Shown here: in pieces, positions 28,258-47,509 of the stretch | Layout of the letters: each line of letters starts with the position of its first letter | How positions within the stretch are numbered: the first letter of the stretch is position 1 | Assembly (NCBI GenBank): GCA_023136835.1 | Contig: JAGLQN010000140.1 | Span: 1-64,000, forward strand | DNA length: 64,000 bases | Direction of reading: 5' to 3' | Origin: Candidatus Omnitrophota bacterium | GTDB taxonomy: Bacteria > Omnitrophota > Gorgyraeia > Zapsychrales > Zapsychraceae | Made by a program: the position numbers and the translations under genes | Notes under the pieces: generated by a model | Database searches by the model: none | What the model saw: the letters and a program-made list of their open reading frames with translations, nothing else | Told to the model about the DNA's origin: nothing

Positions 28258-29466
28258 TCATTTAACTCCTTCTAATTGGTTCACAATTCTTACCTGAGAA
28301 TGCACTGTTACTATCTTTAAATCTGGCACTCCCATCTTCTGAGCTTGGTCCAAAAGTTCCGCCTGATGGAGATATGTAGAAATTATTAGCACGTCAGGAT
28401 TATCCGACTTTATGTATTTTGGATCCCGAACTTCTATGGGTATTTCGGAAAGAAAGTTACCATGTTTTAAAGGATTGTTATCATATACAAACTTAATCTT
28501 TTTCCTGAACTCCTCATCAATCATATATGTTAACCCTGTTGTGTGTCCTCCTGCTCCAAAAAAAGCCACATTATCTTCTTTCTCCAATAATGCATTCAAA
28601 TCTTTTTTCTTTCTATTGTATCCTTCAAAATATTTATCAATGTTTTGATGCGTCATATCGAGTTGATCATTGTTAGAAGAAATGACTGGCTTAGCATCAA
28701 CATTCTTTTTCACGCAAAGATACATAAAATAATCTTCTAGCGAATGAACATGCTCAAGGGAATGCCGGGAAAGAAAATGAAGAATCGTGCCAAGTGAGAA
28801 ATAAGACAAATGCTGATGAAAAAAACATCCAACATGCCCTTCCCGTAAAGAAAGAGCACTGTTTGGAACTTCAATAAATATATGTCCGCCTAGTTTTAAA
28901 ATTTTATAAACTTCCTCAAGAAAACCGTTTGCATCAGACATATGTTCCAAAATATTCCTCAAAATAATTATGTCGAATGAATTTTCTTCAAAATATTTAG
29001 CTGAAAAGTAATCCTTGGTAATTGGTATTCCATATTTTTTTTGGGCGACATCACCAATAGCATTAGGTTCAACACCTTGAACATCATATCCCTGCGCTTT
29101 AAGAAGAGAAAGGAAATAACCATCACAACAGCCGATATCGAGAACCTTTCCTTTCGGCAGATTGCAATCTTTAAAAAAATTAAAAGAATTCTGAGCCTCA
29201 ACTAATCCAACATTCGTTTTAGATGGAATACTCACAGAGGAAAGTAACCCGGAATTTTCACTGCCATATAAAACATCATTATGTTCATCTGCGACAGGGT
29301 TCATTTGCTGAAGGTGTACGCATTGATCGCAACTACCGAGCGTCAAAGGAAAACTTTCCACTTTTCCAAAAAGTTCCGGTGGTTGAACTCCAATGCAAAG
29401 GGGATAACTGTCAAAAAATATCTTTTCACTCAATTCCGAACTACCGCAAATTATACATTTAGCCAT
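28258..29466 (-). CDS. Zinc-binding class I SAM C-methyltransferase (NDP-sugar type)
   Basis: 402 residues with the three-part layout of TylC3/Methyltransf_14-type sugar methyltransferases. Residues C4, C7, C46 and C49 form an N-terminal zinc site; VLDIGCCDGYF (108-118) is SAM motif I with IILRNILEHM as motif II; and a Rossmann-like C-terminal domain starts around VAFFGAGGHT. Relatives methylate carbon 3 of 4-keto-6-deoxy nucleotide sugars. It overlaps the upstream VOC-family gene by eight bases. A branched, C-methylated sugar is a plausible product. Confidence 0.85.
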   Translation of the reverse strand: MAKCIICGSSELSEKIFFDSYPLCIGVQPPELFGKVESFPLTLGSCDQCVHLQQMNPVADEHNDVLYGSENSGLLSSVSIPSKTNVGLVEAQNSFNFFKDCNLPKGKVLDIGCCDGYFLSLLKAQGYDVQGVEPNAIGDVAQKKYGIPITKDYFSAKYFEENSFDIIILRNILEHMSDANGFLEEVYKILKLGGHIFIEVPNSALSLREGHVGCFFHQHLSYFSLGTILHFLSRHSLEHVHSLEDYFMYLCVKKNVDAKPVISSNNDQLDMTHQNIDKYFEGYNRKKKDLNALLEKEDNVAFFGAGGHTTGLTYMIDEEFRKKIKFVYDNNPLKHGNFLSEIPIEVRDPKYIKSDNPDVLIISTYLHQAELLDQAQKMGVPDLKIVTVHSQVRIVNQLEGVK

Positions 29467-29875
29467 CTTCTTTTGTCCTTTCGATTAATTCGATCAATTC
29501 CCTGGATCGAGTATAAAACCAGATAACTCTCCGTCCATTATGTCCGGCGCCTGGATAAATTGTACCTACGGGTAAAGCCTTCATATTTTTAAAATGCTCA
29601 ATTGACTCATCTAAATCCTCAACTTCATAGGATAAATGATGAATCCCGCCTCCCGTTTTTTTTAAGAAATTATATACAGAAGAATCTTCACTCATCGGCT
29701 GGATCAGCTCTATATCGACAGATCCCGGTTGACTTGTCCTCACAAAAATAATCTTAACTTTTTGTTCCGGCTCATCAATAACCGAAGAAAACTCATTAAA
29801 ACCAAAATAGTCTTGATAATATTTCCTGGACTCCTCTAAATCCTTTACAATGACACCTATGTGCTCTAATCTCAT
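29459..29875 (-). CDS. VOC-superfamily protein, methylmalonyl-CoA-epimerase-like
   Basis: 138 residues with the paired beta-alpha-beta modules of glyoxalase/VOC proteins. MRLEHIGVIVKDL carries the first metal-ligand His, VDIELIQP supplies an acidic ligand, GGGIHHLSYEV the second His, and LIELIER the final Glu, the pattern of methylmalonyl-CoA epimerases. AAGGTGATGTT precedes the ATG. In this sugar context it may epimerise or isomerise a CoA- or ACP-linked acyl group or a sugar acid; that is inference. Confidence 0.83.
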   Translation of the reverse strand: MRLEHIGVIVKDLEESRKYYQDYFGFNEFSSVIDEPEQKVKIIFVRTSQPGSVDIELIQPMSEDSSVYNFLKKTGGGIHHLSYEVEDLDESIEHFKNMKALPVGTIYPGAGHNGRRVIWFYTRSRELIELIERTKEDG

Positions 29876-29879
29876 AACA

Positions 29880-30986
29880 TCACCTTATCATATCCCAAGA
29901 AATAATTTCTTCTGCTGAGATATCCTTATTTGCTTTACGCCCTTCCATTTCTTCTTTAAAGAGATTGGGCGATATGCCTTCGCCAGGTCGGGCAAATTTA
30001 ACCATATCAGGAGTAATCACTTCATCTTTTTTAATATTTTTTTGAGCAACAATGCTTCTTCTGACCATTCTTCGAATAGCCAACTCATCTTCAAATAAAA
30101 TCCTCTTCTCTTTTCCTAAGGCGCTTTCGGTCTCCCTTACAGACTTCACAAGATCGATCATATCTTTTGGCTCAAGCGCGAAAAAATGGTCTGGGCCTTC
30201 CATCTTCCTATCAAGGGTGATATGCTTTTCCACAACACAAGACCCCAAGGCCAACGCGGCTAAAGTAAACGCATTGCTGATCGAATGATCCGAGTACCCG
30301 ACCGGAAATCCATAACGCTCCTCGAACATGGCAATGTTCCTAAGATTAATAACTTCCGGTTTGGGTGGATAGCATGAGACACAATGCAGGATGATTAATT
30401 CTTTATTTCCTGCCTCAACTAACATTTTTATTGTTTCGTCTATCTCTTCAATGCGGGCCATGCCTGTAGAAATGATCAAAGGCTTATTACACTTTGCCAC
30501 CTCTTTCAGTAACGGTAAGTGATTGCAATCAATAGACGCAATCTTAAACACGCCTACTCCCAGCTTTAACAGGAAATTAATATCCTCTATTCTGTGTACC
30601 GTTGAAAAAGGAATGAGACCCTTTTCTCTAACGTAATCAAACATTTCTTCAAACCATTCCCTCGGCATTAATATTCTGTCACGCGCTATTTCCCACCAAG
30701 GTTTTTTTCCATACATATATTCAAGGCCAACATCCGTTGTGGTAACATTCTTGCTAAAAGCTTCTTCAGGGTCATAAACTTGAAATTTTACAGCATCAAA
30801 CTTTGCTTCTGCTGCAGCATCGATCAATTGACGCACGACATTTTTATCACGATTATGGTTAGATCCCACTTCCCCAATGATAAAACTTTTCATGCCGTCC
30901 CCAACGACTGCATTTTCAATCTTTATCTTTTTTGGAGCATCTTTTATTTTAAAATCACTTAGACAATTATCTATTTTACTTCTCAT
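29880..30986 (-). CDS. N-acetylneuraminate-synthase-family (NeuB/PseI/SpsE-like) NulO synthase
   Basis: 368 residues. The TIM-barrel domain begins with FIIGEVGSNHNRD (E39, N43, H44) and contains IISTGMA, LHCVSCYPP and the YSDH...VEKHITLDR block, all NeuB family hallmarks. A C-terminal SAF (antifreeze-like) domain starts with RRSIVAQKNIKKDE. These enzymes condense phosphoenolpyruvate with a six-carbon amino or deoxy sugar to form a nine-carbon nonulosonic acid. Substrate specificity (ManNAc, 6-deoxy-AltdiNAc or legionaminic precursor) is not readable. GAGGGTGAA precedes the ATG. Confidence 0.92.
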   Translation of the reverse strand: MRSKIDNCLSDFKIKDAPKKIKIENAVVGDGMKSFIIGEVGSNHNRDKNVVRQLIDAAAEAKFDAVKFQVYDPEEAFSKNVTTTDVGLEYMYGKKPWWEIARDRILMPREWFEEMFDYVREKGLIPFSTVHRIEDINFLLKLGVGVFKIASIDCNHLPLLKEVAKCNKPLIISTGMARIEEIDETIKMLVEAGNKELIILHCVSCYPPKPEVINLRNIAMFEERYGFPVGYSDHSISNAFTLAALALGSCVVEKHITLDRKMEGPDHFFALEPKDMIDLVKSVRETESALGKEKRILFEDELAIRRMVRRSIVAQKNIKKDEVITPDMVKFARPGEGISPNLFKEEMEGRKANKDISAEEIISWDMIR

Positions 30987-31043
30987 TTCACCCTCTCTTT
31001 TAAGAGTTCACTATCAGGAAAGTGCTTTTATCGACAAAAAACA

Positions 31044-31328
31044 TCAGCTTATTTTCCTGGTTAGTACATTCTTAATATCCCCTACTACTGTTATTTCCAG
31101 CATGTCTTCAAAACCTAACTCAACACCAAATTCATCCTGTAATGCCATAACAAGATTTAAATGGTTAAGAGAATCCCAATCTGAGATTCCATTGGGACCA
31201 TCAGAAATATCAAAACGGCCTTCATGCGAAGTAAATACCGAACTTAAAACTTTTTGTATACGCTCTTCCATTGTGTTTTCCTTAGTTGCCGGTTCTTCTT
31301 CGCAACAATATTGCTCATCGTTACTCAT
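31044..31328 (-). CDS. Acyl carrier protein
   Basis: 94 residues. GISDWDSLNHLNLVMAL carries the phosphopantetheine attachment serine (S53) in the DSL motif; the four-helix pattern and acidic C-terminal half fit an ACP. The ATG overlaps the stop of the preceding aminotransferase gene by four bases and has GAGGAG upstream, so the 94-residue form is preferred over an internal ATG at residue 20. No fatty-acid synthesis genes are nearby, so it most likely carries an acyl or aminoacyl group made by the cluster's acyl-AMP ligase (inference). Confidence 0.88.
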   Translation of the reverse strand: MSNDEQYCCEEEPATKENTMEERIQKVLSSVFTSHEGRFDISDGPNGISDWDSLNHLNLVMALQDEFGVELGFEDMLEITVVGDIKNVLTRKIS

Positions 31329-32608
31329 AGACTCCTCGCTGATTGTTTAGCTGTAGAACACTGTAATTGATCCGAAAGAGACCCATCCTCCAATGCTTTT
31401 TTGATAAGCCTGAAGACTTCGGCATATGTATCGAGAGTACAAGAAATCTCATTGTCCTGGTGAGTGAGGCCGACCATATGATAGCCTCCGCTTAGTATAT
31501 TACGCTTAGCTAACTCCTGTATCCAGTACGTACGAATGTCAGCCGCCGGGACTTCACCTGAATCTTTAAAAATCATAACATTTCTACAGAAGAACCCATC
31601 AGCAACAACGACATCATTCAATTCATGTGAATGAATAGTTTTTTTAACTCCTTCTAAAAGTTTCCTGCCATTGCACTCAATGGCTTCTATCACATTCTCT
31701 TTATCAAAAACCTCCATCACAGCCTTAGCGGCAGCCAAACTCACTGTTTCTCCCGCTGTGGTTAAGGAAAAAAAGATTTCTGAACAGCGTTCCATAATTT
31801 CTTTCTTTCCTACTAACGCCGATAAAGGTAACCCATTTGTCATCGCTTTGCTAAAACACGCTAAATCTGGTATGACACCGCTTAAAGCTTGATAGCCGCC
31901 GCGATGAAAACGAAAACCCGTTACTACCTCATCAAAAATCAAAACAACCTTATACTGATCGGCTAATTTCCTGACGGCTTCCAAATAACCCTCTTTAGGA
32001 GAAACGCGTGAAACCGGTTCCATAATGATACATGCTGTACTGCCTTTGTATTGACGAAGCAAAGATTCCAAACTTTCTAAATCATTATACGTAAAGCGAT
32101 GTGAATATTCTTTAATAGTATCCAGGATTCCCCCATTCATAGAAGTCTGAGAAATATACCAATCCTGCCAACCGTGATACCCGCAAAAAAGGACATGGTC
32201 TTTGCCTGTAACATAGCGTGAAAGTCTGACGGCGGCAGAGGTCACATCGTTTCCATTCTTTCCAAAACGTGCCATTTCCGCACAGGGAATACGCTCACAT
32301 AACATCTCTGCTACTTCTACTTCAAGATAATGAACGAAAGAAAAAGAAAAGCCTTTTTCAGCCTGCTTCTTTACAGCTTCTTCCACATAAGGATGGCAGT
32401 ACCCAAGTATCACGCATCCTAAGGCCACTGTATAATCAAGGTATTTATTGCCGTCAACATCCCATACATAAGCCCCTTTGCCATGGCTAACAGCGTAAGG
32501 AGTAATTCCTTGAGCAAATTGATCCGGGCTTTTTCCAAATGTCGATGGCCCAGCAATAACTTTCTGACTGCGTTCATATATTTCCAGCGATTTCTTTAAT
32601 GTATTCAT
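31325..32608 (-). CDS. Class III PLP-dependent aminotransferase (GSA aminomutase-like), copy 1
   Basis: 427 residues from the ATG at 32608, which has AAAGGG upstream; a longer in-frame extension is not needed. Family signs include FGKNGNDVTSAAVRLSR, the CGYHGWQDWY cofactor loop, LIFDEVVTGFR and the PLP lysine in FSKAMTNGLP. Although similar to glutamate-1-semialdehyde aminomutase, the context rules out heme synthesis. It shares the GYHGWxDWY loop with the copy at 42105-43415, so the two are paralogues. It probably transaminates a keto or aldehyde group on a sugar. Confidence 0.87.
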   Translation of the reverse strand: MNTLKKSLEIYERSQKVIAGPSTFGKSPDQFAQGITPYAVSHGKGAYVWDVDGNKYLDYTVALGCVILGYCHPYVEEAVKKQAEKGFSFSFVHYLEVEVAEMLCERIPCAEMARFGKNGNDVTSAAVRLSRYVTGKDHVLFCGYHGWQDWYISQTSMNGGILDTIKEYSHRFTYNDLESLESLLRQYKGSTACIIMEPVSRVSPKEGYLEAVRKLADQYKVVLIFDEVVTGFRFHRGGYQALSGVIPDLACFSKAMTNGLPLSALVGKKEIMERCSEIFFSLTTAGETVSLAAAKAVMEVFDKENVIEAIECNGRKLLEGVKKTIHSHELNDVVVADGFFCRNVMIFKDSGEVPAADIRTYWIQELAKRNILSGGYHMVGLTHQDNEISCTLDTYAEVFRLIKKALEDGSLSDQLQCSTAKQSARSL

Positions 32609-32672
32609 TATTACCCTTTCTTTCCATATTAATTGTGTGCAACCTACGACAGCGTTATATAGATCCAGAAGC

Positions 32673-33734
32673 CTAAGAAATTTCGATAATCGCTCTACCC
32701 AAGACTCTGCCCTCCGACAGATCCTGAACAGCTTCATTAATCTGATCAAGTTTATAACGATTTGTGACCGCCTGATCTAGAAGTAAGGCTCCTTCTTTAT
32801 AATCTTTGTAAAAAATGGGAAAATCTCTCTTGGCAATACAAGCTCCTCCCCGAGAACCCTTGTACGTCCTTTGTCCCAAAAGGATAGAACGGGAATTAAA
32901 CTCTGCTGCTCCTTTCGGAAACCCGACAAGTACTGTTGTTCCTCCTTCGCAGAAACCACAAACACCTTCCCGTGCAGCTAAAATCGTGCTTTCCACTATT
33001 TGAGGTATACCGACCATATCAAAAACAAAATCGGCCCCTCCATTCGTAATTTCCTTAATCGCTTCCACAACATCAGTAGTATCAGAATTTATTGTATGTG
33101 TAGCACCAAAGAGCTTGGAAAACTCCAATTTTTTATCTTTAATATCAACCGCTATGATCGGATTTGCTCCTAAATTTTTTGCCGCATTTACCGCCAGAAC
33201 GCCTAGCCCTCCTGCGCCAAAAACAACAACCGATTGGCCCGGTTTAATATTCACGATATTTCTGACAGTTCCATAACCCGCAACTCCAGCGCAACCTAAA
33301 ACGGCAGTTGTATATTTCTCAAAACCCTTATCCATCTTCGTGATGAATTGACCATCGAGCAATGTATGTTCAGCCCAAGTAAAGAGAACAGTTTTTATTT
33401 CATGCCCGGACCAGCTAACAGTATTCCACTTCAAATATTCTGTGTTTGCATCCGCATTGTATGGTATCCAACTGACCAGAACATGATCGCCTTCCTCGAC
33501 ATGAGTAACAAGTTTTCCTTTTTTAACAACAATACCCGTCGCCTCATGCCCTAGTAATCGCGGAAGTTCAATTTTGGGATGAGTTAAATCATAGAGCTGA
33601 GAACCACATATTCCACTTGCAATAATCTTGATTATGGCTTGATCCGGTTTGGGTTCGGGGATGCTAATCTCATCTATAAAAAGAGGTTTATTGCGTTCGG
33701 CATAAATGACAGCCTTAGTTTTTCGCGTAGACAT
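32673..33734 (-). CDS. Medium-chain (zinc-type) dehydrogenase lacking structural-zinc cysteines
   Basis: 353 residues. GICGSQLYD (catalytic-zinc Cys), LLGHEATG and the Rossmann motif GAGGLGV identify the zinc alcohol dehydrogenase family. The four-cysteine structural-zinc lobe usually found around residue 90-115 is missing. A related copy with the same loss is at 58387-59430. It may oxidise or reduce a hydroxyl of a sugar or polyol, preparing a ketone for the adjacent aminotransferase (inference). Confidence 0.86.
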   Translation of the reverse strand: MSTRKTKAVIYAERNKPLFIDEISIPEPKPDQAIIKIIASGICGSQLYDLTHPKIELPRLLGHEATGIVVKKGKLVTHVEEGDHVLVSWIPYNADANTEYLKWNTVSWSGHEIKTVLFTWAEHTLLDGQFITKMDKGFEKYTTAVLGCAGVAGYGTVRNIVNIKPGQSVVVFGAGGLGVLAVNAAKNLGANPIIAVDIKDKKLEFSKLFGATHTINSDTTDVVEAIKEITNGGADFVFDMVGIPQIVESTILAAREGVCGFCEGGTTVLVGFPKGAAEFNSRSILLGQRTYKGSRGGACIAKRDFPIFYKDYKEGALLLDQAVTNRYKLDQINEAVQDLSEGRVLGRAIIEIS

Positions 33735-33784: not shown

Positions 33785-35881
33785 TTAGATAGATAAGTTA
33801 GTAGAATGGGCATCCCGCCCGTCTCTTTCCGATGATGTAACTCCAATCTTATTTTCTAAAATTCCCTCAACTTTTCTCCTCAGTCGGGACAAGTAATATC
33901 GACTTCGACTATCCGTACCAACAGGCAGTTGATAAGAATCGGATTTATAAAATCCAAAACTATTCCAGAGTTCTTGCCTACTTAATCCTGAATATTCTGT
34001 TTGCGTAAAGGTATAGTTTACTGGATACTTAAAGTCCTTTAGAGGGGAAAATTTATCAGTTCTAAACCATTTGTGAATATCGTAATCAAAGGAAGCTTCT
34101 ATCACAGGTGAGGAAGAACTATCTTCTGATCTATCATAGTAAAGGTGACGTGTATAAAGCTCTAAGTTTTTCAGTTCTTCAAAGACACTGCCATCCTTAC
34201 CCTTAGCAAGGTCTCTAATCATATTAAAAAGCCAGTTCATCATAGAACTATAATGCTCAATCCATAACTTCATTGAGTATTTTAAGAGATCTCCACCTTT
34301 ATTGCCCAACATATAATCTTTACAATGTTTTTTCATGTACGCGAGGACTTCTTCTTCAGTATCAAACATTGCTTCCATATAGCTCTCTCTATACTCTTGC
34401 AGCCAATCTCTGATATCAACAGGAGCCTCGGGGAGATCATCACAAAGTTTCGATATTAAATCACTCATTTGAATCCCAATGGATTTTAGATAGGCAAACA
34501 ATTCGCGTAGTGGCGCTTGCCTTAAAATAGCATCTAATATTACCGTATAAACGCGGCAATAAAAAACACCATCTAGACTCATATCTTTAGTTGCGAGGAT
34601 AATGTTCTCAATTTCACAAATAAATTCACCATCGCAATATCCTATAAAATTACTAAACTGTCGATATTTGGTGTAAAAACCATACCGGTCAATTGTATCT
34701 TGAGAAGCTAATTCTGTTGCACTTAACAATGCAGTCGGATGTACCCTGGGCCTAACATCGGCACCTGTATCTAAAAGCGCTTTTAAACCAGCAATGAAAC
34801 TTTCCTTTGTTTCCCCGGGAAGCGGAAGGATAAAATCAGGGCTTTGGACTTGTCCGCCGAAATCCTTTATCAATTCGACTCCACTTTTAATTTGCCGTCG
34901 TTTTATGTTTTTCAAAACTTCTGGATTGGAACTTTGTAGGGAATTTGAAATAGTCATCATTCCTGGCAAAATATCCTGTGCAATATGTTTTATCCGATCA
35001 TATTGTGATTTACCAGAGTCACAATCAATGAACTGCGGCCAATTTTTTGTTTCATTTAGATACTTCAGGTGCCTGGCTATCGGGATGTCTTGCTTGTAAC
35101 TACCCCAATTATTATCAAAGATATATAAACCGGCTTCTGGGTGAACTCTTTCGGCGATGTAATTTAATTCTTCCTTAACGTGGTCAAGAGATTTGAATTT
35201 GACTTTACTATAGTAAGGATCACCTTGTTGGCAATAAGTGCAAGAGAATGGGCATCCTCGATTTGTTTCGACCATAGGCACAAGGTGCTTGTTTGCTAAA
35301 AACTTATCTAGAAGTCCTGTTAAGTAAGGAGATGGTATCGTGTTAAAATCAACTATTTTTGGTAGAAGAGGGCCGCTTATAATGCTTTCATCATCCTTGA
35401 CAAAAAAACAGTTTCCCAGTTCCCCAATACGTTCCCGAAGTTTACCGGGGTTTTGATCGCAATCCAGATAAGTTTTTATAATATTCGTGAACGCAACTTC
35501 TCCCTCAGTTTCGACTAATAGATCAATATGTGAGTACAATTTGGCGAAACGTTTTTTGTCCACATGTTGCCGATTAATCTCTGGGCCTCCAAAAACAAGC
35601 AAAATATCGGGGTTGATCTCTTTTGCAATTTTTGAGATTTTAAGGCAAAGATTTGTATTCCACACGTAGTTTGCTACTCCAAGAACATCGGGTTTTTTTT
35701 CTTTTATATATTTTAAAATCGGTGTAAGAAGTTTATGAATTTGTAAATCTACCTCAGGCAGACTTTTTTTCAAATAACTCCCCAGTAGACCCGATCCATA
35801 GGGGATACATTGAGTCCCTATTTTATCAAAACGCGGTTCGATGAGTAGTATTTTTAGGTTTTCAATTGACTTGTTACTCAT
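33785..35881 (-). CDS. B12-binding radical SAM protein, long form
   Basis: 698 residues from the ATG at 35881, chosen because AAGGA lies eight bases before it; an ATG three codons upstream is too close to that site. The N-terminal part looks like a cobalamin-binding domain (LLVFGGPEINRQ, VETEGE). The radical SAM cluster motif is NRGCPFSCTYC with C210, C214 and C217. A C-terminal region of about 350 residues includes FILPLPGETKESF and then no known motif; it is longer than in most family members. Reaction unknown. It lies inside the nonulosonate cluster. Confidence 0.87.
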   Translation of the reverse strand: MSNKSIENLKILLIEPRFDKIGTQCIPYGSGLLGSYLKKSLPEVDLQIHKLLTPILKYIKEKKPDVLGVANYVWNTNLCLKISKIAKEINPDILLVFGGPEINRQHVDKKRFAKLYSHIDLLVETEGEVAFTNIIKTYLDCDQNPGKLRERIGELGNCFFVKDDESIISGPLLPKIVDFNTIPSPYLTGLLDKFLANKHLVPMVETNRGCPFSCTYCQQGDPYYSKVKFKSLDHVKEELNYIAERVHPEAGLYIFDNNWGSYKQDIPIARHLKYLNETKNWPQFIDCDSGKSQYDRIKHIAQDILPGMMTISNSLQSSNPEVLKNIKRRQIKSGVELIKDFGGQVQSPDFILPLPGETKESFIAGLKALLDTGADVRPRVHPTALLSATELASQDTIDRYGFYTKYRQFSNFIGYCDGEFICEIENIILATKDMSLDGVFYCRVYTVILDAILRQAPLRELFAYLKSIGIQMSDLISKLCDDLPEAPVDIRDWLQEYRESYMEAMFDTEEEVLAYMKKHCKDYMLGNKGGDLLKYSMKLWIEHYSSMMNWLFNMIRDLAKGKDGSVFEELKNLELYTRHLYYDRSEDSSSSPVIEASFDYDIHKWFRTDKFSPLKDFKYPVNYTFTQTEYSGLSRQELWNSFGFYKSDSYQLPVGTDSRSRYYLSRLRRKVEGILENKIGVTSSERDGRDAHSTNLSI

Positions 35882-35925
35882 AAATATCATCCTTTTTTCA
35901 TGGCGAATTAATCATAAAAAACACT

Positions 35926-36708
35926 TTATAAATTAGCTAACCTATTTGAAAGATTTTCATAAATAAATTTATTTGATGCAATAAGTACGCTGTCTTGAAA
36001 TTTATATTCCCTGCCTTTGCCAGACATCACCATTCCATTGGACTCTCTCACTAAAATTATCCCCGCAGCTAAATCCCAAGAGAACAGTTCTTTTGACCAA
36101 AAACCATCTATTCTACCACAAGCTAAATAGGCAAGACTTAAAGCCGCAGAACCAGTTCTTAATACGCCTCGTGTAGTATCATTCATGTTGCCGAATATTT
36201 CATATTCTCTTTTCTTCTGCTCTGAACGCGCTGATGAAAAGGCAGCAACATATAGACCGTCTTCAACTTCTCTCTTTTGAGAAACATTAATCTGTTGTCC
36301 ATTCAAGAAAGCGCCCTGACCCTTGGATGCATAAAATAGCTCTTGCGTAAAAGGGTTATAAATTGCTCCCGCAACAACCTTTCCATTCTTTTCAACGCCC
36401 ACGGATACAGCGCAAAAAGGGATCTGCTGGCTATAATTAACCGTGCCATCCAAAGGATCAATATGCCATACATATTCAGAATTCATTTTCTCAACTTTTT
36501 CCTCTTCTCCAATAATAGTGTGATCAGTAAAAACTTCTCTGATTTTTTCTTTAATATTTTTTTCAGATAAAATATCAACGTCGGTAACAAGATCTCGAAT
36601 ATTTTGATTTTTCTGCTTGAAATCATGCAGTTTTCCAAAATAATCCACCAAAATATAGCCGCTTGTTTCTACCGCTTTTATCGCAACGGCTAAACACTCT
36701 TTACGCAT
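35926..36708 (-). CDS. Inositol-monophosphatase-family phosphatase
   Basis: 260 residues. GEEEKVEK (E68/E69), the metal-binding HIDPLDGTVNY (83-92) and SWDLAAGIIL are the three diagnostic blocks of the Mg-dependent IMPase/FBPase superfamily. These enzymes remove phosphate from inositol, sugar or polyol phosphates. It overlaps the mannitol-dehydrogenase-like gene by 19 bases, so the pair may turn a sugar phosphate into a polyol phosphate and then a free polyol (inference). Confidence 0.9.
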   Translation of the reverse strand: MRKECLAVAIKAVETSGYILVDYFGKLHDFKQKNQNIRDLVTDVDILSEKNIKEKIREVFTDHTIIGEEEKVEKMNSEYVWHIDPLDGTVNYSQQIPFCAVSVGVEKNGKVVAGAIYNPFTQELFYASKGQGAFLNGQQINVSQKREVEDGLYVAAFSSARSEQKKREYEIFGNMNDTTRGVLRTGSAALSLAYLACGRIDGFWSKELFSWDLAAGIILVRESNGMVMSGKGREYKFQDSVLIASNKFIYENLSNRLANL

Positions 36709-39385: not shown

Positions 39386-40369
39386 TTAGAATATTTCGGT
39401 CGTGTCCCCCATAGTGAAATACCAGTTTGCACCATCCAACATAGGCCTATATTTTTCTTGATCACAATTTAGTCTGCATATTAATGGCCGCGGCCTTACT
39501 GACTTAAATCCATTTTCTAATAAAATATCCCTATATATTGCGGCTCCTATCATCCAAGTGCTTACAACGTTAGTGTTATTATCAACAAAAAAAATGTCGC
39601 TTTGCCCCAGCAAGTAAGCAGCCACATCGCCCCTTCCCGACAATGAATAAATATCTACAATATGTCCTCTTAATATTTCCCCATCTTGATATAATTTCAA
39701 AATAACATAGCCTACCAAAATATTATTCTCGTACACACCAAAGGCGTGATATTTTTGATCCGGCCTCTCTAAATATCTCCAATTCAAGAAAGCGGCGTCT
39801 CTAATAACCGATATTTTATAATCATCCTTCCCTTGATCCCACAAAGCATCAACAGAATGGTCAAATTGCGTTATTGGTAAAAATTCAAAATCCGCAGAAA
39901 CATTCTTTCCCCCAGACGGCCCGTCAACACGTGTTTCCTTTTCCAGTGTGTCAACCATAATCACATCGCTGTAGCCCATTAATTTTTTATGCAAATCATA
40001 GGCTAAATCATTAGGAAAACCATAAGAAAACGCCATATCTTTCGTTACAATATCCTCAAAAAGTTTATCCGCGACGAATTTAATAAGACCTTTGCCTTGA
40101 TATTCAGGCAAAACCATTGACCCAATAGAATGCGACCCGAGCACGTCTTTACCTAACACCCTCAATCGATATGGAATGGCTGCAAAATGAACAATAATCT
40201 TCCCTTCATGCTCCATAAGATAAATAGTCGCATTACCCGCTGGATTATTGCCAGTGTGCTTCCAATACCAATTATCCAAATCCCGCTTATTCCAGGGGTC
40301 CGGAAACAAGATCCAATCCAGTTCTAAAATTTGATTCTCATCTCCTGGCTGATATGACCTGATTTTCAT
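39386..40369 (-). CDS. GNAT-family acyltransferase, two-lobed
   Basis: 327 residues. The first 150 residues follow the GNAT layout, with MVLPEYQGKGLIKFV as the acyl-CoA/pantetheine loop motif and FSYGFPNDLAYDLHKKLMGY after it. The second half is about as long and may be a degenerate second GNAT lobe, so it is larger than PseH/SpsD. It overlaps the PseG-like gene by 32 bases. In nonulosonate pathways this position is taken by the N-acetyltransferase acting on the 4-amino sugar. It could use an ACP-bound acyl donor, given the cluster's ACP. Confidence 0.75.
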   Translation of the reverse strand: MKIRSYQPGDENQILELDWILFPDPWNKRDLDNWYWKHTGNNPAGNATIYLMEHEGKIIVHFAAIPYRLRVLGKDVLGSHSIGSMVLPEYQGKGLIKFVADKLFEDIVTKDMAFSYGFPNDLAYDLHKKLMGYSDVIMVDTLEKETRVDGPSGGKNVSADFEFLPITQFDHSVDALWDQGKDDYKISVIRDAAFLNWRYLERPDQKYHAFGVYENNILVGYVILKLYQDGEILRGHIVDIYSLSGRGDVAAYLLGQSDIFFVDNNTNVVSTWMIGAAIYRDILLENGFKSVRPRPLICRLNCDQEKYRPMLDGANWYFTMGDTTEIF

Positions 40370-41345
40370 AAATCAATAACTCCTCTGCTATTCTTTTTGC
40401 ACCCTGCCCATCAACTAATCTTATTCCAACATCCCTACAGCGTAGCCGTTCTTCTTTCGAATCAAGCTTGTTAAGCGCTCGGATCAACTTCTCTTCGACT
40501 CTGCCAAAATCCCCAATATATTCAATAAAACCTTCCCGGCTCCATCCCTCCAAATTTAATATCTGATTGTCTGATTGACAAAAGGCTATCGTCGGCACTC
40601 CAGATCTTGCAAGCTCGTAGAGAGTCTGCCCTCCTGAAGAAATCGCAATATCTGCCTGTGTCATGATTTCAGCCATTTTCCTCACGTCGGGATAATACAC
40701 TAGATGCGTATTGATATCGGACACACTCTTGATCTCATTTATGTTGTCAAATCCGTTACCTATAATGATATCTTTTCTTAACGTCGGATACTGGTCTTTT
40801 AAAAACTTAACCATTTTAGGTATAATATTTTTAGGATCATTTCCCCCGGTTGTTATCATAACGCTTTCAATTGAATCACCCGGTTCTTTTAGCTCCATCT
40901 CCCAGAACAACTTTCTTAAAGGAGCATACCCGCATCCCAAAAGATATTGAACATCTTCCCTCTCTGGATATTTTAACGTTGTCGCATGAATACCACTATT
41001 AATGACGACACCTCTGGGATAATCCAATCTCTTATTATCATCAATATAAACCGGAACCCTTACCCGTTCAGATAACTCTCTATAAAAATTAAGATCCGCC
41101 AAGTAAGAATCGATAATGACAACATCAGCTTCTTCAATAAATTTAATACACTCCCACTTTTCATGGAGCCAATTACATGCCTGATAACTACCTTCCTTGA
41201 GTATCCTTCTTATACTTTCGTCGCCATTAACAACAAATGTCGGGATTACCCCTTTCTCCGCAAACGCCTGCACAATAGAACTGCATCTGATGATGTGCCC
41301 CAAACCGCCGATCGCACCACCTTCTGTTAAAAACAAGACTTTCAT
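40338..41345 (-). CDS. pseG: PseG/SpsG-like UDP-sugar hydrolase
   Basis: 335 residues with a GT-B fold. GGLGHIIRC at 13-21 includes the catalytic His equivalent to PseG H17, and SSGGQTLYELARSGVP is the nucleotide-binding C-terminal motif. PseG releases UDP from UDP-2,4-diacetamido-2,4,6-trideoxy-altrose, giving the free sugar that a NeuB-type synthase uses. Its ATG overlaps the spsF-like stop by four bases. Given the NeuB-like and PseC-like genes, this role fits well; a true glycosyltransferase role is less likely. Confidence 0.85.
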   Translation of the reverse strand: MKVLFLTEGGAIGGLGHIIRCSSIVQAFAEKGVIPTFVVNGDESIRRILKEGSYQACNWLHEKWECIKFIEEADVVIIDSYLADLNFYRELSERVRVPVYIDDNKRLDYPRGVVINSGIHATTLKYPEREDVQYLLGCGYAPLRKLFWEMELKEPGDSIESVMITTGGNDPKNIIPKMVKFLKDQYPTLRKDIIIGNGFDNINEIKSVSDINTHLVYYPDVRKMAEIMTQADIAISSGGQTLYELARSGVPTIAFCQSDNQILNLEGWSREGFIEYIGDFGRVEEKLIRALNKLDSKEERLRCRDVGIRLVDGQGAKRIAEELLIYENQVISARR

Positions 41346-42100
41346 CCATTGACCTCTTGATCGCGCTCCAAGGATTTGATTAAACCTTCATTTCTCACGA
41401 TGTTCATATTAAGCTCGTAAACATTTTCATGTTCGTCTAAATACGCCTTAACATCGTCTCCGGAAAAATTGAATATACTTTTTTTATGGAAATATTCAAA
41501 GACGGCCGTCACCACCTGAAAATCACTTTGTTCATCCACTGAAAATCTGTACCGGCCATCATTCGTTGTATTTTCCAACACTGATGTTTTGAACTCGTCC
41601 TGATGATTGAACACATAGAGCATGACATGTTCTCTTTCTGATGAGAGCTTTGCTTGCGCCCAAACTTTCTTTAAGGTATTCAATGTAAAGACCTCGCAAT
41701 CCAGTCCTTCCGCAAAAGTGAGTCCGACTTTCACATAATCAAATTTTTCCTTCAAAAAAGCACCTATAACTTGGTCGCACACTTTAGGATCAACCAAAGG
41801 ACAATCACCGGTAATTCTTACTATGCCATCGGGGTCGTACTGTTTTGCGACTTGACAAAATCTATCTAAGACGTCACTTTCGCTGCCTCGATAGACATCA
41901 AATCCACAGTTTTGCACATAATCAGCGAGTTCATTATTCTCTGATAAGTGTGACGTAGCCAATATGATCTTATCGATTCCTTTAGACAAAGATAATCTTG
42001 CAAGCAAATGGCCAATCATTGGCTTACCAAGAATTTTTTTCATTACCTTTCCGGGTAAACGGGTTGAAGACATTCTCGCTTGTACAATGGCTAAAATCAT
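41342..42100 (-). CDS. spsF: SpsF-type CMP-sugar cytidylyltransferase
   Basis: 252 residues. IVQARMSSTRLPGKVM at the start, RITGDCPLVDP in the middle and DSxxDFQ-like blocks are the pattern of COG1861 proteins (SpsF), relatives of acylneuraminate cytidylyltransferases. They are expected to activate a nonulosonic acid with CTP. The ordering next to PseG-like and aminotransferase genes parallels the Bacillus spsCDEFG operon. Substrate choice not determinable. Confidence 0.87.
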   Translation of the reverse strand: MILAIVQARMSSTRLPGKVMKKILGKPMIGHLLARLSLSKGIDKIILATSHLSENNELADYVQNCGFDVYRGSESDVLDRFCQVAKQYDPDGIVRITGDCPLVDPKVCDQVIGAFLKEKFDYVKVGLTFAEGLDCEVFTLNTLKKVWAQAKLSSEREHVMLYVFNHQDEFKTSVLENTTNDGRYRFSVDEQSDFQVVTAVFEYFHKKSIFNFSGDDVKAYLDEHENVYELNMNIVRNEGLIKSLERDQEVNG

Positions 42101-42104
42101 ATTT

Positions 42105-43415
42105 TCACGTTAACCTTTTAAATCCCGAGTGACAAACGGGGCCGTCTAACATCTCCTCTAAAGCCCCGGATCTTACCGCTTCAGAAATCATTGCGAAAAC
42201 GTCACCGGCGGCATCTAAATATTTATCGACAATCTCCTTTGTGTGCGCATAAGATACATAGATAGCATTAGTCGCCAAAAATCCTCTCTTTAACATCTCT
42301 TGTGTAAATATTGTTTTAATCACAAGCGGCTGATCTTCCTTGATCTCCATAACCGGTAGAGAAGCGATTCCGGCCATATCGATTTTTAAAGAACATTTCT
42401 TAAAAATATTTTTTAATTCATTCGACAAATAGTTCCCCGTCTCAACTATTTTCTGTGATACATTGTCCCGTTTAAATATCTTTATGGTTTCTAGCGCGGC
42501 CGCAAAACCTGTTCTCTCCGTCCAGAAAGTACTACTAATGAAGGTCGTCTGTGCCGCTTGCATAACATCACGCGTCCCGAGCACGCATGAAATAGGATAA
42601 CCATTGCCCAGCGCCTTCCCAAGAATGATCATGTCCGGTATAATTCCATAAACCATATGCATTCCGCCCGTTGTAACCCTGAAGCCCGATGACACTTCAT
42701 CAAACACAAAAACAGCACCGATTTCTTCACTGATCTTTCTGACCTCTTTTAAAAAATCTGGATCAACTTCTTTGTGCCTGCAGACTTCCATCATAACAAC
42801 GCCGATGCTGTTTTTATTCTCTTCAACCAATTTCTTAAATCCTTGAATATCACCATAATTAAAAGGTATTGATGTGCTTATCAACCCTTCAGGAACGCCG
42901 CACGGATCTAATCCCGGAAGAAGCTGACCATTAAGATTTTCTTTATCAGCTAAATTCGAAGCCAGATACCAATCGCTCCATCCATGGTAACCACAAAAAG
43001 CAACCTTATCTTTCTTTGCGAAAGCTCGGGCGATGCGAACGGCGATCGCGCAGGCTTCACCACCTGTCTTGGCATATCTCACCATTTGGGCCCAGGGATG
43101 CAATTCAATTAATTTCTGAGCCAAATGGACTTCTTCATAACAATTAAGAGTCGACATATTCCCATCAGTAACAGCAGCTACAACAGCATTATTGATCTCG
43201 TCATTTGCATATCCCAATATGCATGAACCGATCCCCATAAGGCTCATATCATAATAATGTTGATCATCCAGATCCCAAACCTCAGCCCCTTTCGCTTTCT
43301 TATAATAGGAAGGCCATTTCTCCGGCAAAAACATTTCCCCCCGCTTTGATAAGAGCTGCGTTCCTCCCGGAATAATTTTTTTAGCTTCTCTATATAATTC
43401 TTGAGATTTTCCCAT
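42105..43415 (-). CDS. Class III PLP-dependent aminotransferase (GSA aminomutase-like), copy 2
   Basis: 436 residues from the ATG at 43415, which has AGAGG at good spacing; an ATG three codons upstream directly abuts the ribosome site. Motifs: RYAKTGGEACAIAVRIAR, FCGYHGWSDWY, FVFDEVSSGFR and the PLP lysine in LGKALGNGYP. It lies between the SpsF-like gene and a formyltransferase. This fits a keto sugar or NulO side-chain aminotransferase whose amine is then formylated (inference). Not hemL: no tetrapyrrole genes nearby. Confidence 0.87.
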   Translation of the reverse strand: MGKSQELYREAKKIIPGGTQLLSKRGEMFLPEKWPSYYKKAKGAEVWDLDDQHYYDMSLMGIGSCILGYANDEINNAVVAAVTDGNMSTLNCYEEVHLAQKLIELHPWAQMVRYAKTGGEACAIAVRIARAFAKKDKVAFCGYHGWSDWYLASNLADKENLNGQLLPGLDPCGVPEGLISTSIPFNYGDIQGFKKLVEENKNSIGVVMMEVCRHKEVDPDFLKEVRKISEEIGAVFVFDEVSSGFRVTTGGMHMVYGIIPDMIILGKALGNGYPISCVLGTRDVMQAAQTTFISSTFWTERTGFAAALETIKIFKRDNVSQKIVETGNYLSNELKNIFKKCSLKIDMAGIASLPVMEIKEDQPLVIKTIFTQEMLKRGFLATNAIYVSYAHTKEIVDKYLDAAGDVFAMISEAVRSGALEEMLDGPVCHSGFKRLT

Positions 43416-44460
43416 CAATATCATCCTCTAATGGCGGACAGAGTACTTCATCTTTCAACCCCATGGGCGTATAAACCGCTTTAAACATTTTTGCCTGCTC
43501 TAAATATTTTAGTGGAGTATAAAATCTCTCCCCTAAACGTAATTCATCTTGCACTCCCTTACCATCCTCATTCAATACCTTATTAATAATCAGTGTTCCT
43601 TCATTAACCGAAACTAAGATTTCATCTTCCATTTTTCTGTAGATAATGCCCTGTTGAAATGGATGAAATGACCCGTCATTATAATCAACTTGACACCCTT
43701 TCAAAAAAACTTTTTGCCCATTAATGAATGTCGCGGCTCCACCATAAGGAGCATCAAAGGCATTAATAAAAGTCTCAACATGTTCTAATAACCAGCTCCA
43801 ATCAATAAAAGCGTGATTTTTTGTGTTTAGCCGCGGCCAATACATGCTGAGATATTCGGGTTGACCAACTACCTTAAAGTCATTTTTGGCCTTTACCTGA
43901 GACATAAACTCCTTAAAAAAGATAATACTTTTCTGATTATGATAATCAATGAAATCTTGAGGAATCTGGCACAACGCAGGATAAATAAACTCTTTATATT
44001 TAACGATATCACCATTATCAATGCCCGGAAAAACTTGATGAACAAGGCAATATCCTAATTTATTTTTTCCTAATATTTGCCAGGTAAACCCTCCTCCTCC
44101 TCTATTCTGAGGAAGCCTGGTTCCATGCATATTAATAAGTCTTCCGTTAAAGAGTTGAATAAATTGTTCTTTGAAAATCCAGGCGGCACCCAGACTTAAA
44201 CCCAATGTTTTGTCGGTAATATTGCTCAAAACCTTCTTGTTAGTACTGATACCCTCTACCTCATAAAAATCGATACCATCTTTTATTAACAATTCTTTTA
44301 GAGTTCTCCCCCCTTCCCATTGTTCTTTTAAATGCCTTGGCGCGCTAAACACAACGACCTCATATCCACTATTACTTAATTGCTTTGCCACATCGCGTAA
44401 AAACAATCCGCCACCAAAAAGAATTACTTTATTAATGTCACCAAAATTTATTTTGATCAT
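43390..44460 (-). CDS. Formyltransferase (Fmt-like), probable amino-sugar N-formyltransferase
   Basis: 356 residues. The catalytic triad of tetrahydrofolate-dependent formyltransferases is intact: N110 and H112 in LINMHGTRLP and D148 in PGIDNGDIV. The C-terminal third resembles the Fmt OB-fold (FINGQKVFLKG, GTLIINKV). Family members formylate Met-tRNA, UDP-amino-arabinose or dTDP-amino-6-deoxyhexoses. Position next to an aminotransferase and NulO genes favours formylating a free amine on a sugar. It overlaps the aminotransferase start by 26 bases. Confidence 0.85.
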   Translation of the reverse strand: MIKINFGDINKVILFGGGLFLRDVAKQLSNSGYEVVVFSAPRHLKEQWEGGRTLKELLIKDGIDFYEVEGISTNKKVLSNITDKTLGLSLGAAWIFKEQFIQLFNGRLINMHGTRLPQNRGGGGFTWQILGKNKLGYCLVHQVFPGIDNGDIVKYKEFIYPALCQIPQDFIDYHNQKSIIFFKEFMSQVKAKNDFKVVGQPEYLSMYWPRLNTKNHAFIDWSWLLEHVETFINAFDAPYGGAATFINGQKVFLKGCQVDYNDGSFHPFQQGIIYRKMEDEILVSVNEGTLIINKVLNEDGKGVQDELRLGERFYTPLKYLEQAKMFKAVYTPMGLKDEVLCPPLEDDIDGKISRII

Positions 44461-44472
44461 ATTAGCCTTCTT

Positions 44473-45351
44473 TCAATTAACAGCCCATTTATAAGGTAAA
44501 AGAGTATTCTCGTTCTGGATTGCAATCGCGCTCAATTGCCCATACACGTTTCTGACTTGGCCAATCAAATTTAAGCTCACAACATTATTTTCAAAATGAG
44601 CTAAACAATCCACCCCAATAATAACTTTATCAATATGAGGGCTTAATAATACAAAATTTAAACAAAGCGCCTCGACAGAGATTTTTCGGATTTCCGCAAT
44701 CTGCTGTAATTTTTCTAATTGCGGTCTTGCCTCTTGAAGTGATCCCGTCAAATGCTCCGAACTCAAGAAAGCCAATCCCTGCAGAAATACGGATCTCACC
44801 TGAATTTCAATTTCCCGTTCTTTCAACATGTCAAAATAACCTTCAAATCTCCGATCAAAAACGCTGTAAGGAATCTGTATAATGTCAAAATCTAATTCAT
44901 TTTTTAATAAACATTCTAACTCGTCCGGAGAGTATAAAGAAAATCCTATTTTCTCTATCCGTCCATCATCTTTTAGGCGAACCAAACTATTCCAAATGTC
45001 ATCGTTTATTAAAATATCCGAAAATTGATGCACTAAATATCCGTATATTCTTTTTAAACCTATCCTCCTGAGGCTTTCCTCTAAGCTTTCTTCAACTTTA
45101 CCCAGGTTAAATAACTCCATAGAGGGTAATTTGGAAACAATTTTAAATTCACTTGGATTTTCTTTTAAATATTCACCAATAATCAACTCACTATCACCGT
45201 AGGAATAAGCTGTATCCAAATAACTTATGCCAACGTGATTGGCATGATCAAGGATTTCAAACACTTCCTTTTTTGATACTTTTCCCGTTGTGTTGGCTAT
45301 CCCGTAATCTTGTCCGAATTGAACAGTTCCCAAACTAATCTTGGATATCAT
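44473..45351 (-). CDS. Aldo/keto reductase
   Basis: 292 residues, TIM-barrel. The catalytic tetrad is visible as YLDTAYSYG (Asp, Tyr), a Lys in KIVSKLP and a His in YLVHQF. Aldo/keto reductases of this kind recur in cytidylyltransferase-aminotransferase clusters for nonulosonic acids. It might reduce or oxidise a side-chain carbonyl to feed the adjacent class III aminotransferase. The gene lies between the fusion protein and the formyltransferase with short gaps. Confidence 0.88.
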   Translation of the reverse strand: MISKISLGTVQFGQDYGIANTTGKVSKKEVFEILDHANHVGISYLDTAYSYGDSELIIGEYLKENPSEFKIVSKLPSMELFNLGKVEESLEESLRRIGLKRIYGYLVHQFSDILINDDIWNSLVRLKDDGRIEKIGFSLYSPDELECLLKNELDFDIIQIPYSVFDRRFEGYFDMLKEREIEIQVRSVFLQGLAFLSSEHLTGSLQEARPQLEKLQQIAEIRKISVEALCLNFVLLSPHIDKVIIGVDCLAHFENNVVSLNLIGQVRNVYGQLSAIAIQNENTLLPYKWAVN

Positions 45352-45355
45352 AAAG

Positions 45356-47509
45356 TTACTTCGCGATTTCTTTTATATCTTTGATTACTTTATTTACTTC
45401 CGCTTTTGCCATCATCGGATATAGCGGAATAGAAAGACAATTGCGATAATATCGTTCCATATTAGGAAAATTTCCCTCATTTGTTTTGAAACATTCTCTA
45501 TAGTAGGGCTGTGTGTAAACAGGTATATAATGAACCTGTGTCTGAATCCCCTTATTTCTTAATTCAAGCATGACCTGCGCTCTAGACTTTCTGATTTTTT
45601 CAAAATCAAACTGAAGAACGTAAAGATGAAAATTACTATCACAATAATCTTTTTCTAATGGAGTTTTAAGCCACTCGATATTCTTAAATGTATCATTGTA
45701 AAGATCAACAATCTCCCTTCTTCGTTGACGAAAACCATCTAACTTCTTTAACTGAGAAATCCCTAACGCGCATTGAATTTCAGTAATACGGTAGTTGTAT
45801 CCCAAACAATTTTGCTCATAATACCATGGATTTCTTAACGGCTTATCTCCGGTATACTTGCTTTGATCAACAGCATTCTCCTTATACAGCAGTTCATCAA
45901 AATCACTAGTGATCCCATGGGAGCGAAAATAACTTAATTTCCGGCGCAATTCTTTATTATTGGTTAAAACAGCCCCTCCTTCACCTGTCGTGATATGTTT
46001 GATAGGATGAAAACTCATAACCGTCATATCCGAATAAGCACAAGAGCCAACCTTTGTTTGTTTATAAGAAGATCCCAACGCATGGCAAGCATCTTCAATA
46101 ATATAAATTTTATGTCCAAACTTTTTTTCATACGAATGTACGCAATCGTGAATGGCCTCCATATCACAGCTTTGTCCGGCAAAATGAACAAGAATGATCG
46201 CCCTAGTCTTTTTGTTAATCCTCTTTTCAATTCCCTGTAAAGAAATATTGTATGTTTCTGGATCAATATCGACAAAGACAGGCTTCCCCCCACAATAAAC
46301 AACACAATTAACCGAGGCAACAAAAGTATTGGGAGGGACAATTACTTCATCACCATTGCTTATGCCCGCAGCTAAACAAGTAATATGTAACGCTGATGTT
46401 CCTGAATTGACAACAACACCTAAAGAAGCATCTGTTACCTGGCATAAAGCGGATTCAAACTCACGAATTCGGGGGCCCTGTGTAATCGCTTCTGATTTTA
46501 AGGTCTCAACAACAGAATTAATATCATCATCATCAATACACTGCTGGCCATAGGAAATAATACCCGATGCGGAAGGATAAATATTAATATGACGCCCGCT
46601 TGATTTTATTTTCTCAGGGACACCCTTTTTAAAATCTTCCACAAAACGTTCTATTGAATAAGATATCGGGGGAATATCTATCGAAAGATCTTTAGCTAAT
46701 TTTCTAGTATTAAGGCTCAACTGTTTATTGCGTTTGGCTTTAAACTCAAATTCATCGATAGAAATTGGCTTGATCAGATTCTGTTTAAGATTTAACTGAT
46801 TCGCGATCTCAGAAACAAATTCATATTTGGACATCGAAGAACTGCTGGCGCAGTTATAAATTCCTGATAAATTCTTTTTTATAGCTAAATCCAGAAGTTT
46901 TGCTAATTCAAATGTGTAAATCGAGGAAAAAAAACAATCCATAAACCCATACATTTCTCTATTTTGTGTCAACTCATGGATCACCCACTCTCCGAGGCTA
47001 TATTTATTCTGAACATTCCATCCGAAGAAATTCGTTCTCAAAACCAAGGAATCCTTCTTTTTCAAGACTTCTTTTTCAGCTTGGCATTTTGTCGTTCCAT
47101 AATGATTGAGTGGCTTAACCGGGTCCGCTTCAGAAAACGAATCCTTTTCTCCACTATAAACCAAATCCGTAGATATATAGACTAGCGTAATTCCAGCCCC
47201 ATTCACATTTTCTATCAAATTCTGCGTTCCTAAAACATTGATACGCTGAGCATCTTCGGGGTGCTCTTCACACACATCCACATCAGCCTGGGCCGCACAA
47301 TGGACAATGATTTCAGGGCTGAATTCACGGATAAGCCTGCTGACATCTTTGCCCGACGTAAGATCTATATTGATGGTCTCAATTCCTGCCATCTCAACTT
47401 TATGAGTATGATACACTCCTAATATGTTATAGGAATCTCTCATGAGATAGGCTAGATTACTTCCCAAAAGACCGCTAATTCCGGTAATTAACATCTTCTT
47501 TTTTTTCAT
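45356..47509 (-). CDS. pseC: Fusion: RmlD-like SDR + PseC-like DegT aminotransferase
   Basis: 717 residues. Residues 1-300 form an extended SDR related to dTDP-4-dehydrorhamnose reductase: G10/G13/G16 loop, YISTDLVYSG at 111-120 and Y137-GTT-K141. Residues about 308-717 form a complete DegT/DnrJ/EryC1 aminotransferase: NSGTSALH, EDACHALGS (472-480) and PLP lysine K504 in SFHPIKHITTGEGG, the signature of PseC (UDP-4-keto-6-deoxy-GlcNAc C4 transaminase). One frame without interruption covers both parts, so this is a genuine fusion. The SDR could make or reduce the keto substrate passed to the aminotransferase. Confidence 0.9.
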   Translation of the reverse strand: MKKKKMLITGISGLLGSNLAYLMRDSYNILGVYHTHKVEMAGIETINIDLTSGKDVSRLIREFSPEIIVHCAAQADVDVCEEHPEDAQRINVLGTQNLIENVNGAGITLVYISTDLVYSGEKDSFSEADPVKPLNHYGTTKCQAEKEVLKKKDSLVLRTNFFGWNVQNKYSLGEWVIHELTQNREMYGFMDCFFSSIYTFELAKLLDLAIKKNLSGIYNCASSSSMSKYEFVSEIANQLNLKQNLIKPISIDEFEFKAKRNKQLSLNTRKLAKDLSIDIPPISYSIERFVEDFKKGVPEKIKSSGRHINIYPSASGIISYGQQCIDDDDINSVVETLKSEAITQGPRIREFESALCQVTDASLGVVVNSGTSALHITCLAAGISNGDEVIVPPNTFVASVNCVVYCGGKPVFVDIDPETYNISLQGIEKRINKKTRAIILVHFAGQSCDMEAIHDCVHSYEKKFGHKIYIIEDACHALGSSYKQTKVGSCAYSDMTVMSFHPIKHITTGEGGAVLTNNKELRRKLSYFRSHGITSDFDELLYKENAVDQSKYTGDKPLRNPWYYEQNCLGYNYRITEIQCALGISQLKKLDGFRQRRREIVDLYNDTFKNIEWLKTPLEKDYCDSNFHLYVLQFDFEKIRKSRAQVMLELRNKGIQTQVHYIPVYTQPYYRECFKTNEGNFPNMERYYRNCLSIPLYPMMAKAEVNKVIKDIKEIAK

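Follow-up and report, generated by a model that had tools for sequence, protein, structure and literature searches.

The window analysed here is a stretch of 64,000 nucleotides (contig JAGLQN010000140.1) from the fragmented 3.17-Mb genome assembly of a Candidatus Omnitrophota bacterium, in which no 16S gene was found. Between positions 27570 and 47509, it carries a run of genes that combines a nonulosonate (NulO) pathway with a putative acyl-tailoring cassette. These genes all lie in one direction, with short gaps or overlaps. A preliminary description had listed an spsCDEFG-type core together with an AMP-forming acyl ligase (AMP ligase), an acyl carrier protein (ACP), a two-lobed GNAT, a formyltransferase, two class III aminotransferases (ATa and AT b), and an aldo/keto reductase (AKR). 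Pfam and NCBIfam profile searches of the window proteins found all of them in their places (Table 1). ATa, however, most likely starts at 32608 and not at 32749. The PseC part of the PseC-like gene is present, but the actual product is a fusion of an RmlD-like reductase with PseC. The span also holds genes missing from the earlier list, which encode a Zn-dependent alcohol dehydrogenase (Zn-ADH), a B12-binding radical SAM protein, an inositol-monophosphatase-family (IMPase-type) phosphatase, a mannitol-1-phosphate-dehydrogenase-like (MtlD-like) enzyme, and a VOC protein. A motif search covered the ligase, aminotransferases, formyltransferase, AKR, phosphatase, radical SAM, and VOC proteins, and every active-site motif sought was present.

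The NulO core pathway

The core genes form a pseudaminate-type set (PseB, PseC, PseG, NeuB/PseI, and CMP-synthetase), and PseC scores above the TIGR03588 cut-off. The SpsF-type protein is the probable CMP-NulO synthetase. The pathway is complete because a PseB homologue lies on the same contig, approximately 6 kb beyond the window (C47:69808-70893), with 69% identity to the PseB of a related genome. Judged from the sequences, the product would be a pseudaminate-type NulO. The scores do not fix its stereochemistry: NeuB also matches TIGR03569 and PseI models, staying below both the NeuB and the PseI cut-offs, and PseG reaches 146.8 bits against a cut-off of 153.55. The RmlD-PseC fusion recurs in L043, an Omnitrophota locus of the same order.

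The AKR and a class III aminotransferase lie among the PseB/PseC/SpsF/PseG/NeuB genes. The same AKR/aminotransferase/SpsF and PseB/PseC/NeuB set is widespread on bacterial and viral contigs, including phage, Nitrospirota, and Chitinispirillales loci. The preliminary description had named the AKR and both class III aminotransferases among the genes interleaved with the core. They are present, but the AKR and one of the aminotransferases belong to this widespread locus type and are not peculiar to the cassette. Many IMG/VR contigs (L052-L074) also carry NulO-type sets with PseB, SpsF, a class III aminotransferase, the AKR, and NeuB.

The ACP, ligase, and GNAT and their conservation

The ACP gene is located directly upstream of neuB. 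An AF2 model of the protein, built from a two-sequence alignment, has a mean pLDDT of 86 and approximately 95 in the core. In the predicted fold, helix II begins at the DSL serine, and the best 50 PDB matches of the model are all carrier proteins, free or in complexes. On this model, the protein is predicted to be a genuine ACP despite its weak sequence score. In the AMP ligase, which is the candidate loader of the ACP, all five adenylation motifs sought were found (A3, A5, A7, A8, and A10).

Comparison loci were obtained from a genome scan seeded on ATa, and three were informative: L075 in Omnitrophota STC_87, L041 in Omnitrophota UBA10174, and L077 with L159 in Humidesulfovibrio Ess09-03. 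A scan seeded on the GNAT gave no match. The 5.2-kb STC_87 contig has ADH-ATa-ACP-NeuB-VOC-methyltransferase in the window's order, at 57-76% identity. Humidesulfovibrio, a member of another phylum, has the order PIG-L, PseB, PseC, formyltransferase, radical SAM, ATa, radical SAM, PseG, GNAT, VOC, ligase, MtlD, phosphatase, with methyltransferase-ACP-NeuB on the opposite strand. The order PseG-GNAT-(VOC)-ligase-MtlD-phosphatase is common to this locus and the window. Identities between the two are 43% for the GNAT, 47% for VOC, 51% for the ligase, 57% for the phosphatase, 58% for NeuB, and 59% for MtlD, and 23% for PseG. Since the gene order recurs in another phylum, chance clustering of the genes is ruled out.

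UBA10174 has AT b-SpsF-PseG-NeuB and, further on, a DUF2172/DUF4910 protein, the ACP, a ligase-phosphatase fusion, a PdxA-like dehydrogenase, a B12-radical SAM protein, a VOC-like protein (recognised by eye, with no Pfam match), AAC(3)-like and GNAT-type proteins, and ATa. The fusion is a 766-aa open frame (L041:4849-7146) that joins an AMP ligase to an inositol-monophosphatase domain and adjoins the ACP and PdxA-like genes. The DUF2172/DUF4910 protein (L041:7309-8682) is encoded immediately upstream of the ACP, and we take its architecture to be that of Cj1295 of Campylobacter jejuni. Unlike in UBA10174, no DUF4910 protein was seen in the window's cassette.

Thus, an ACP and a candidate loader accompany NulO genes in the window, Humidesulfovibrio, and UBA10174, and ACP-NeuB is found alone on the short STC_87 contig. 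ACP and NeuB are adjacent in three genomes of two phyla, PseG and the GNAT are adjacent in two phyla, and MtlD, phosphatase, and ligase are contiguous in both. The formyltransferase is also part of the Humidesulfovibrio locus. The preliminary description had proposed to check whether relatives keep the ACP and ligase with NulO genes, and both recur in this way in Humidesulfovibrio and UBA10174. Since the GNAT adjoins PseG in two phyla and no other PseH candidate was seen in the operon, the GNAT may act at N-7 of the NulO.

One clade with support 1.0 unites the window's ligase with those of Humidesulfovibrio and UBA10174. All the other ligases in the trees fall outside it: 28 from Omnitrophota, and the three that rank next among those of the Humidesulfovibrio phylum. 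Ligases of that phylum with 33-35% identity were rejected as members, since they lie outside the clade in acyl-CoA or fatty-acid metabolism loci. The ATa proteins form a five-member clade (support 0.999) in which every member lies in a NulO/ACP locus. The cassette occurs rarely and in scattered genomes, the pattern that horizontal transfer would be expected to leave: ATa was found in 2 of 81 genomes of the order (E<=1e-110) and MtlD in 1 of 297 genomes of the Humidesulfovibrio class (E<=1e-60). MtlD matches in two Omnitrophota genomes were rejected as giant open reading frames of a different kind. These frames (L168:126-7049 and L169:6523-13131), of approximately 2,200-2,300 aa, match the MtlD-type protein over one stretch.

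FkbH enzymes load glyceryl groups onto ACPs. L043 retains the RmlD-PseC fusion, AT b, AKR, PIG-L, NeuB, and PseG, and beside these NulO genes it encodes FkbH (TIGR01686, 263 bits against a cut-off of 147), an ACP, a VOC protein, and a relative of the two-lobed GNAT (28%) at L043:7950-11242. An FkbH (HAD-IIIC) query matched nothing in either the window or the end of the contig. L043 thus follows the same plan with another loader, whereas the window has the AMP ligase with MtlD and the phosphatase. Since FkbH takes the place of the ligase while the GNAT, VOC, and ACP are kept, the AMP ligase and FkbH look like alternative loaders for the same GNAT type. The L043 locus is predicted to make a glyceryl-type acylated NulO.

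Other genes of the cassette and its surroundings

Table 1. Genes of the NulO locus, in window positions. Percentages are identities of homologues in the loci named.
Gene product	Position	Strand	Evidence
PIG-L/LmbE-type deacetylase	27570..28256	-	PF02585 89.9 bits; 48% beside PseB in L160, 40% beside NeuB in L043
SAM methyltransferase with C-methyltransferase C-terminal domain	28258..29466	-	PF13489, PF08484
VOC protein, methylmalonyl-CoA-epimerase-like	29459..29875	-	PF13669 77.6 bits; TIGR03081 87.7 bits, below cut-off
NeuB/PseI-type nonulosonate synthase with SAF domain	29880..30986	-	PF03102 257 bits; 68% in L075, 58% in L159
Dedicated ACP (DSL Ser53)	31044..31328	-	PF00550 22.3 bits, cut-off 20.8
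Class III aminotransferase a (ATa), GSAM / aminoglycoside C-6' aminotransferase-like	31325..32608	-	PF00202 158 bits; PDB matches
Zn-ADH	32673..33734	-	PF00107, PF08240; 76% in L075
B12-binding radical SAM protein, KedN5-like	33785..35890	-	PF04055, PF02310; NF033712 145 bits, below cut-off; CX3CX2C found
IMPase-type phosphatase	35926..36708	-	PF00459 216 bits; 57% in L077; ligase-fused in L041
MtlD-like NAD(P) oxidoreductase	36690..37796	-	PF08125, PF01232; 59% in L077
AMP ligase, candidate acyl-ACP loader	37837..39375	-	PF00501 249 bits; PF13193
Two-lobed GNAT, candidate acyl transferase	39386..40369	-	PF13527; 43% in L077, also PseG-adjacent there
PseG-type UDP-sugar hydrolase	40338..41345	-	TIGR03590 146.8 bits, cut-off 153.55
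SpsF-type cytidylyltransferase	41342..42100	-	PF02348 131 bits
Class III aminotransferase b (AT b), widespread NulO-locus type	42105..43424	-	PF00202 150 bits; 62% in L041, 47% in L043
N-formyltransferase	43390..44460	-	PF02911 43.9 bits; PDB matches including PseJ
AKR	44473..45351	-	PF00248 133 bits; adjoins class III aminotransferases in many NulO loci
RmlD-like reductase fused to PseC aminotransferase, 717 aa	45356..47509	-	PF04321 170 bits; PF01041 390 bits; TIGR03588 489 bits, above cut-off

The best PDB matches of the VOC protein, which has a 61% homologue in STC_87, are methylmalonyl-CoA epimerases, and the protein is a candidate epimerase of an acyl thioester. Zn-ADH is a possible partner of ATa, and the B12-radical SAM protein is a possible C-methyltransferase. 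The SAM methyltransferase probably belongs to the cassette; its homologues in STC_87 (59%) and L159 (31%) both adjoin ACP-NeuB. The PIG-L deacetylase may free an amine on a NulO precursor. The formyltransferase had been described as intact, and its catalytic residues N110-H112 (N-x-H) and Asp148 are indeed found.

Some of these genes bear on the nature of the acyl group. No fatty-acid elongation genes (FabG, FabZ, or ketosynthase) were found within the cassette. Two enzymes are linked to the ligase: the phosphatase, which forms a single protein with it in UBA10174, and a dehydrogenase, which is MtlD-like in the window and PdxA-like in UBA10174. The MtlD-like enzyme matches NCBIfam MtlD models with up to 155 bits, below cut-off, and belongs to a family that reduces phosphorylated keto-sugars. 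A relative with 38% identity is encoded beside an altronate dehydratase, a hint that the substrates of this family include sugar acids. Because elongation genes are absent, a phosphatase and a dehydrogenase are linked to the ligase, and altronate dehydratase is a neighbour, the best guess is that the acyl group is a polyhydroxy (sugar) acid and not a fatty acid.

The wider island contains glycosyltransferase, O-antigen-ligase-like, ABC-exporter, and sugar-nucleotide genes, and its product is therefore probably a surface polysaccharide. No flagellin or Maf gene was found among the window proteins scanned, which were a subset of the genes, and no genome-wide flagellin search was made. Two adjoining genes at 54168-55981 encode the halves of a transketolase-like enzyme. 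Two more radical SAM proteins, one B12-binding and one SPASM-like, are encoded at 19216-20592 and 61752-62834.

Comparison with known systems

Aeromonas group II flagellin islands combine pse genes with an ACP, a 3-oxoacyl-ACP reductase, and an AMP synthetase (PMC7874193). The polar-flagellin islands include a deacetylase in some subgroups, as does the window, and the AKR and class III aminotransferase layout of group I islands matches that of the window (PMC7874193). Unlike in the window, group II genes resemble fatty-acid genes, including luxE and luxC, and no MtlD/phosphatase pair, NeuB-adjacent ACP, or RmlD-PseC fusion is described in what is available of that report (PMC7874193). In enterobacterial islands, formyltransferases occur together with ligases and an ACP (PMC4875605). 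In a Pse cluster of Vibrio, SpsF is fused to an AKR, and PseH is followed by a gene resembling that of methylmalonyl-CoA epimerase (PMC7371886). C. jejuni makes a di-O-methylglyceryl pseudaminate that depends on Cj1295, in which the acyl group on Pse derives from a small hydroxy acid, like the product proposed here (PMC3068675). B. subtilis spsCDEFG shares the SpsC-, SpsE-, SpsF-, and SpsG-type core enzymes with the window and differs from it by the window's tailoring cassette (PMC7439481). PseJ (PDB 6ci2 and 6ci4), a formyltransferase of the Pse pathway, weakly matches the window enzyme, which also has a Formyl_trans_C domain and is matched equally well or better by other formyltransferases.

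Since the Aeromonas, enterobacterial, Vibrio, and C. jejuni systems are already published, the principle is not new: NulOs with acyl and formyl groups have been described, as have ACP/ligase genes within NulO islands. The preliminary description had suggested an undescribed system that adds a custom acyl group and an N-formyl group to the NulO. The tailoring part of this suggestion is supported in that the ACP, ligase, and formyltransferase travel with NulO genes, including in another phylum. The word "undescribed", however, was an overstatement, given the ACP and AMP-synthetase genes beside pse genes (PMC7874193), di-O-methylglyceryl pseudaminate (PMC3068675), and PseJ in the PDB. In the available portions of the literature compared, no description was found of the combination of a NeuB-linked ACP with the ligase, MtlD, phosphatase, VOC, and GNAT.

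Proposed function and alternative explanations

We consider it fairly probable that the locus is a horizontally mobile tailoring cassette on a pseudaminate-type NulO pathway, which attaches a custom acyl group carried by the ACP and a formyl group. From the gene content, intact motifs, conserved linkage, and predicted ACP fold, we infer a reaction chain of ligase, ACP, and GNAT, with the acyl group, acceptor position, and order of steps as follows. Starting from a phosphorylated precursor, the phosphatase and MtlD-like dehydrogenase would produce or trim a small polyhydroxy (sugar) acid, which the AMP ligase would activate and load onto the dedicated ACP. The thioester-bound acid could then be epimerised by VOC or methylated by the B12-radical SAM protein and the SAM methyltransferase. 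The GNAT, at the place expected for PseH beside PseG, would transfer the acyl group to the UDP-sugar or NulO at one of its amines, and the formyltransferase would acylate a different amine. Amines may be supplied by PIG-L and the aminotransferase/oxidoreductase pairs.

Several points weigh against this proposal. The closest solved relatives of the AMP ligase are CoA ligases, and the sequences at hand do not tell the ACP from CoA as its carrier. In sequence, nothing but a weak profile match to N-myristoyltransferase connects the GNAT with a larger acyl donor, and the AlphaFold model of the GNAT, from a two-sequence alignment, has a pLDDT of 48, too poor for fold comparison. The GNAT family is also found in loci with no recognised NulO or ACP gene. 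The Humidesulfovibrio stretches examined contain nothing that clearly corresponds to ADH, AKR, SpsF, or AT b, and the radical SAM proteins differ in subfamily between loci. Some cassette genes may serve another residue because the island holds many other sugar genes.

The ligase, ACP, GNAT, MtlD, and phosphatase might indeed acylate a residue other than the NulO, such as an N-acylated amino sugar within the same polysaccharide, and be co-located through the clustering of glycan genes. In its favour, the contig forms a large island for surface polysaccharide, nucleotidyl-sugar and export genes included, and no NulO genes are seen in other loci that carry this type of GNAT. The adjacency of ACP with NeuB and of PseG with the GNAT across phyla argues against such clustering, as do genes that overlap or nearly overlap inside one operon, and this explanation is possible but unlikely. 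It is quite unlikely that an ordinary fatty or short-chain acyl ligase provides the NulO with a simple acyl group, such as hydroxybutyryl or propionyl. The best NCBIfam match of the ligase is a fatty-acid CoA-ligase subfamily, below cut-off, and flagellin islands of Aeromonas and enterobacteria join an ACP, a FabG-type reductase, and an AMP synthetase (PMC7874193, PMC4875605). Against this stand the lack of FabG, FabZ, and ketosynthase inside the cassette, its phosphatase and polyol-phosphate-type dehydrogenase, and the separation of the NulO-linked ligase clade from ordinary ligases.

The MtlD-like dehydrogenase and phosphatase could also make a free polyol or inositol-like component unrelated to the ligase. 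The dehydrogenase is nearer to mannitol-1-phosphate dehydrogenase models than to uronate reductases, and such enzymes use a sugar phosphate with no carboxyl group. The contiguity of the two genes with the ligase in both phyla, the phosphatase-ligase fusion, and the altronate-dehydratase neighbour of the MtlD relative make a separate polyol pathway very unlikely.

Within the proposed sugar-acid tailoring of the NulO, one specific route is a speculative idea with a slim chance of being correct. The acyl group would be a 3-deoxy-aldonic acid derived from a keto-acid phosphate of central metabolism, such as 2-keto-3-deoxy-6-phosphogluconate. MtlD would reduce C2, the phosphatase would dephosphorylate the product, and the ligase and ACP would activate it for methylation and C2 epimerisation before the GNAT transfers it to N-7. 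Kurniyati et al. are said to have found in 2017 that the flagellin NulO of Treponema denticola carries a 2-methoxy-4,5,6-trihydroxyhexanoyl group, a sugar-acid-like group of the proposed kind. If this route is true, the cassette would give sugar-acid-acylated NulOs of that kind their first assigned set of genes.

Many bacterial NulOs bear unusual acyl groups, and for several of them the enzymes that make and attach these groups are unassigned. A compact cassette found in two phyla, in which the loader is swappable (AMP ligase or FkbH) and the GNAT, VOC, and ACP are constant, offers candidate genes for each step. It also suggests that glycan decorations pass between phyla as units.

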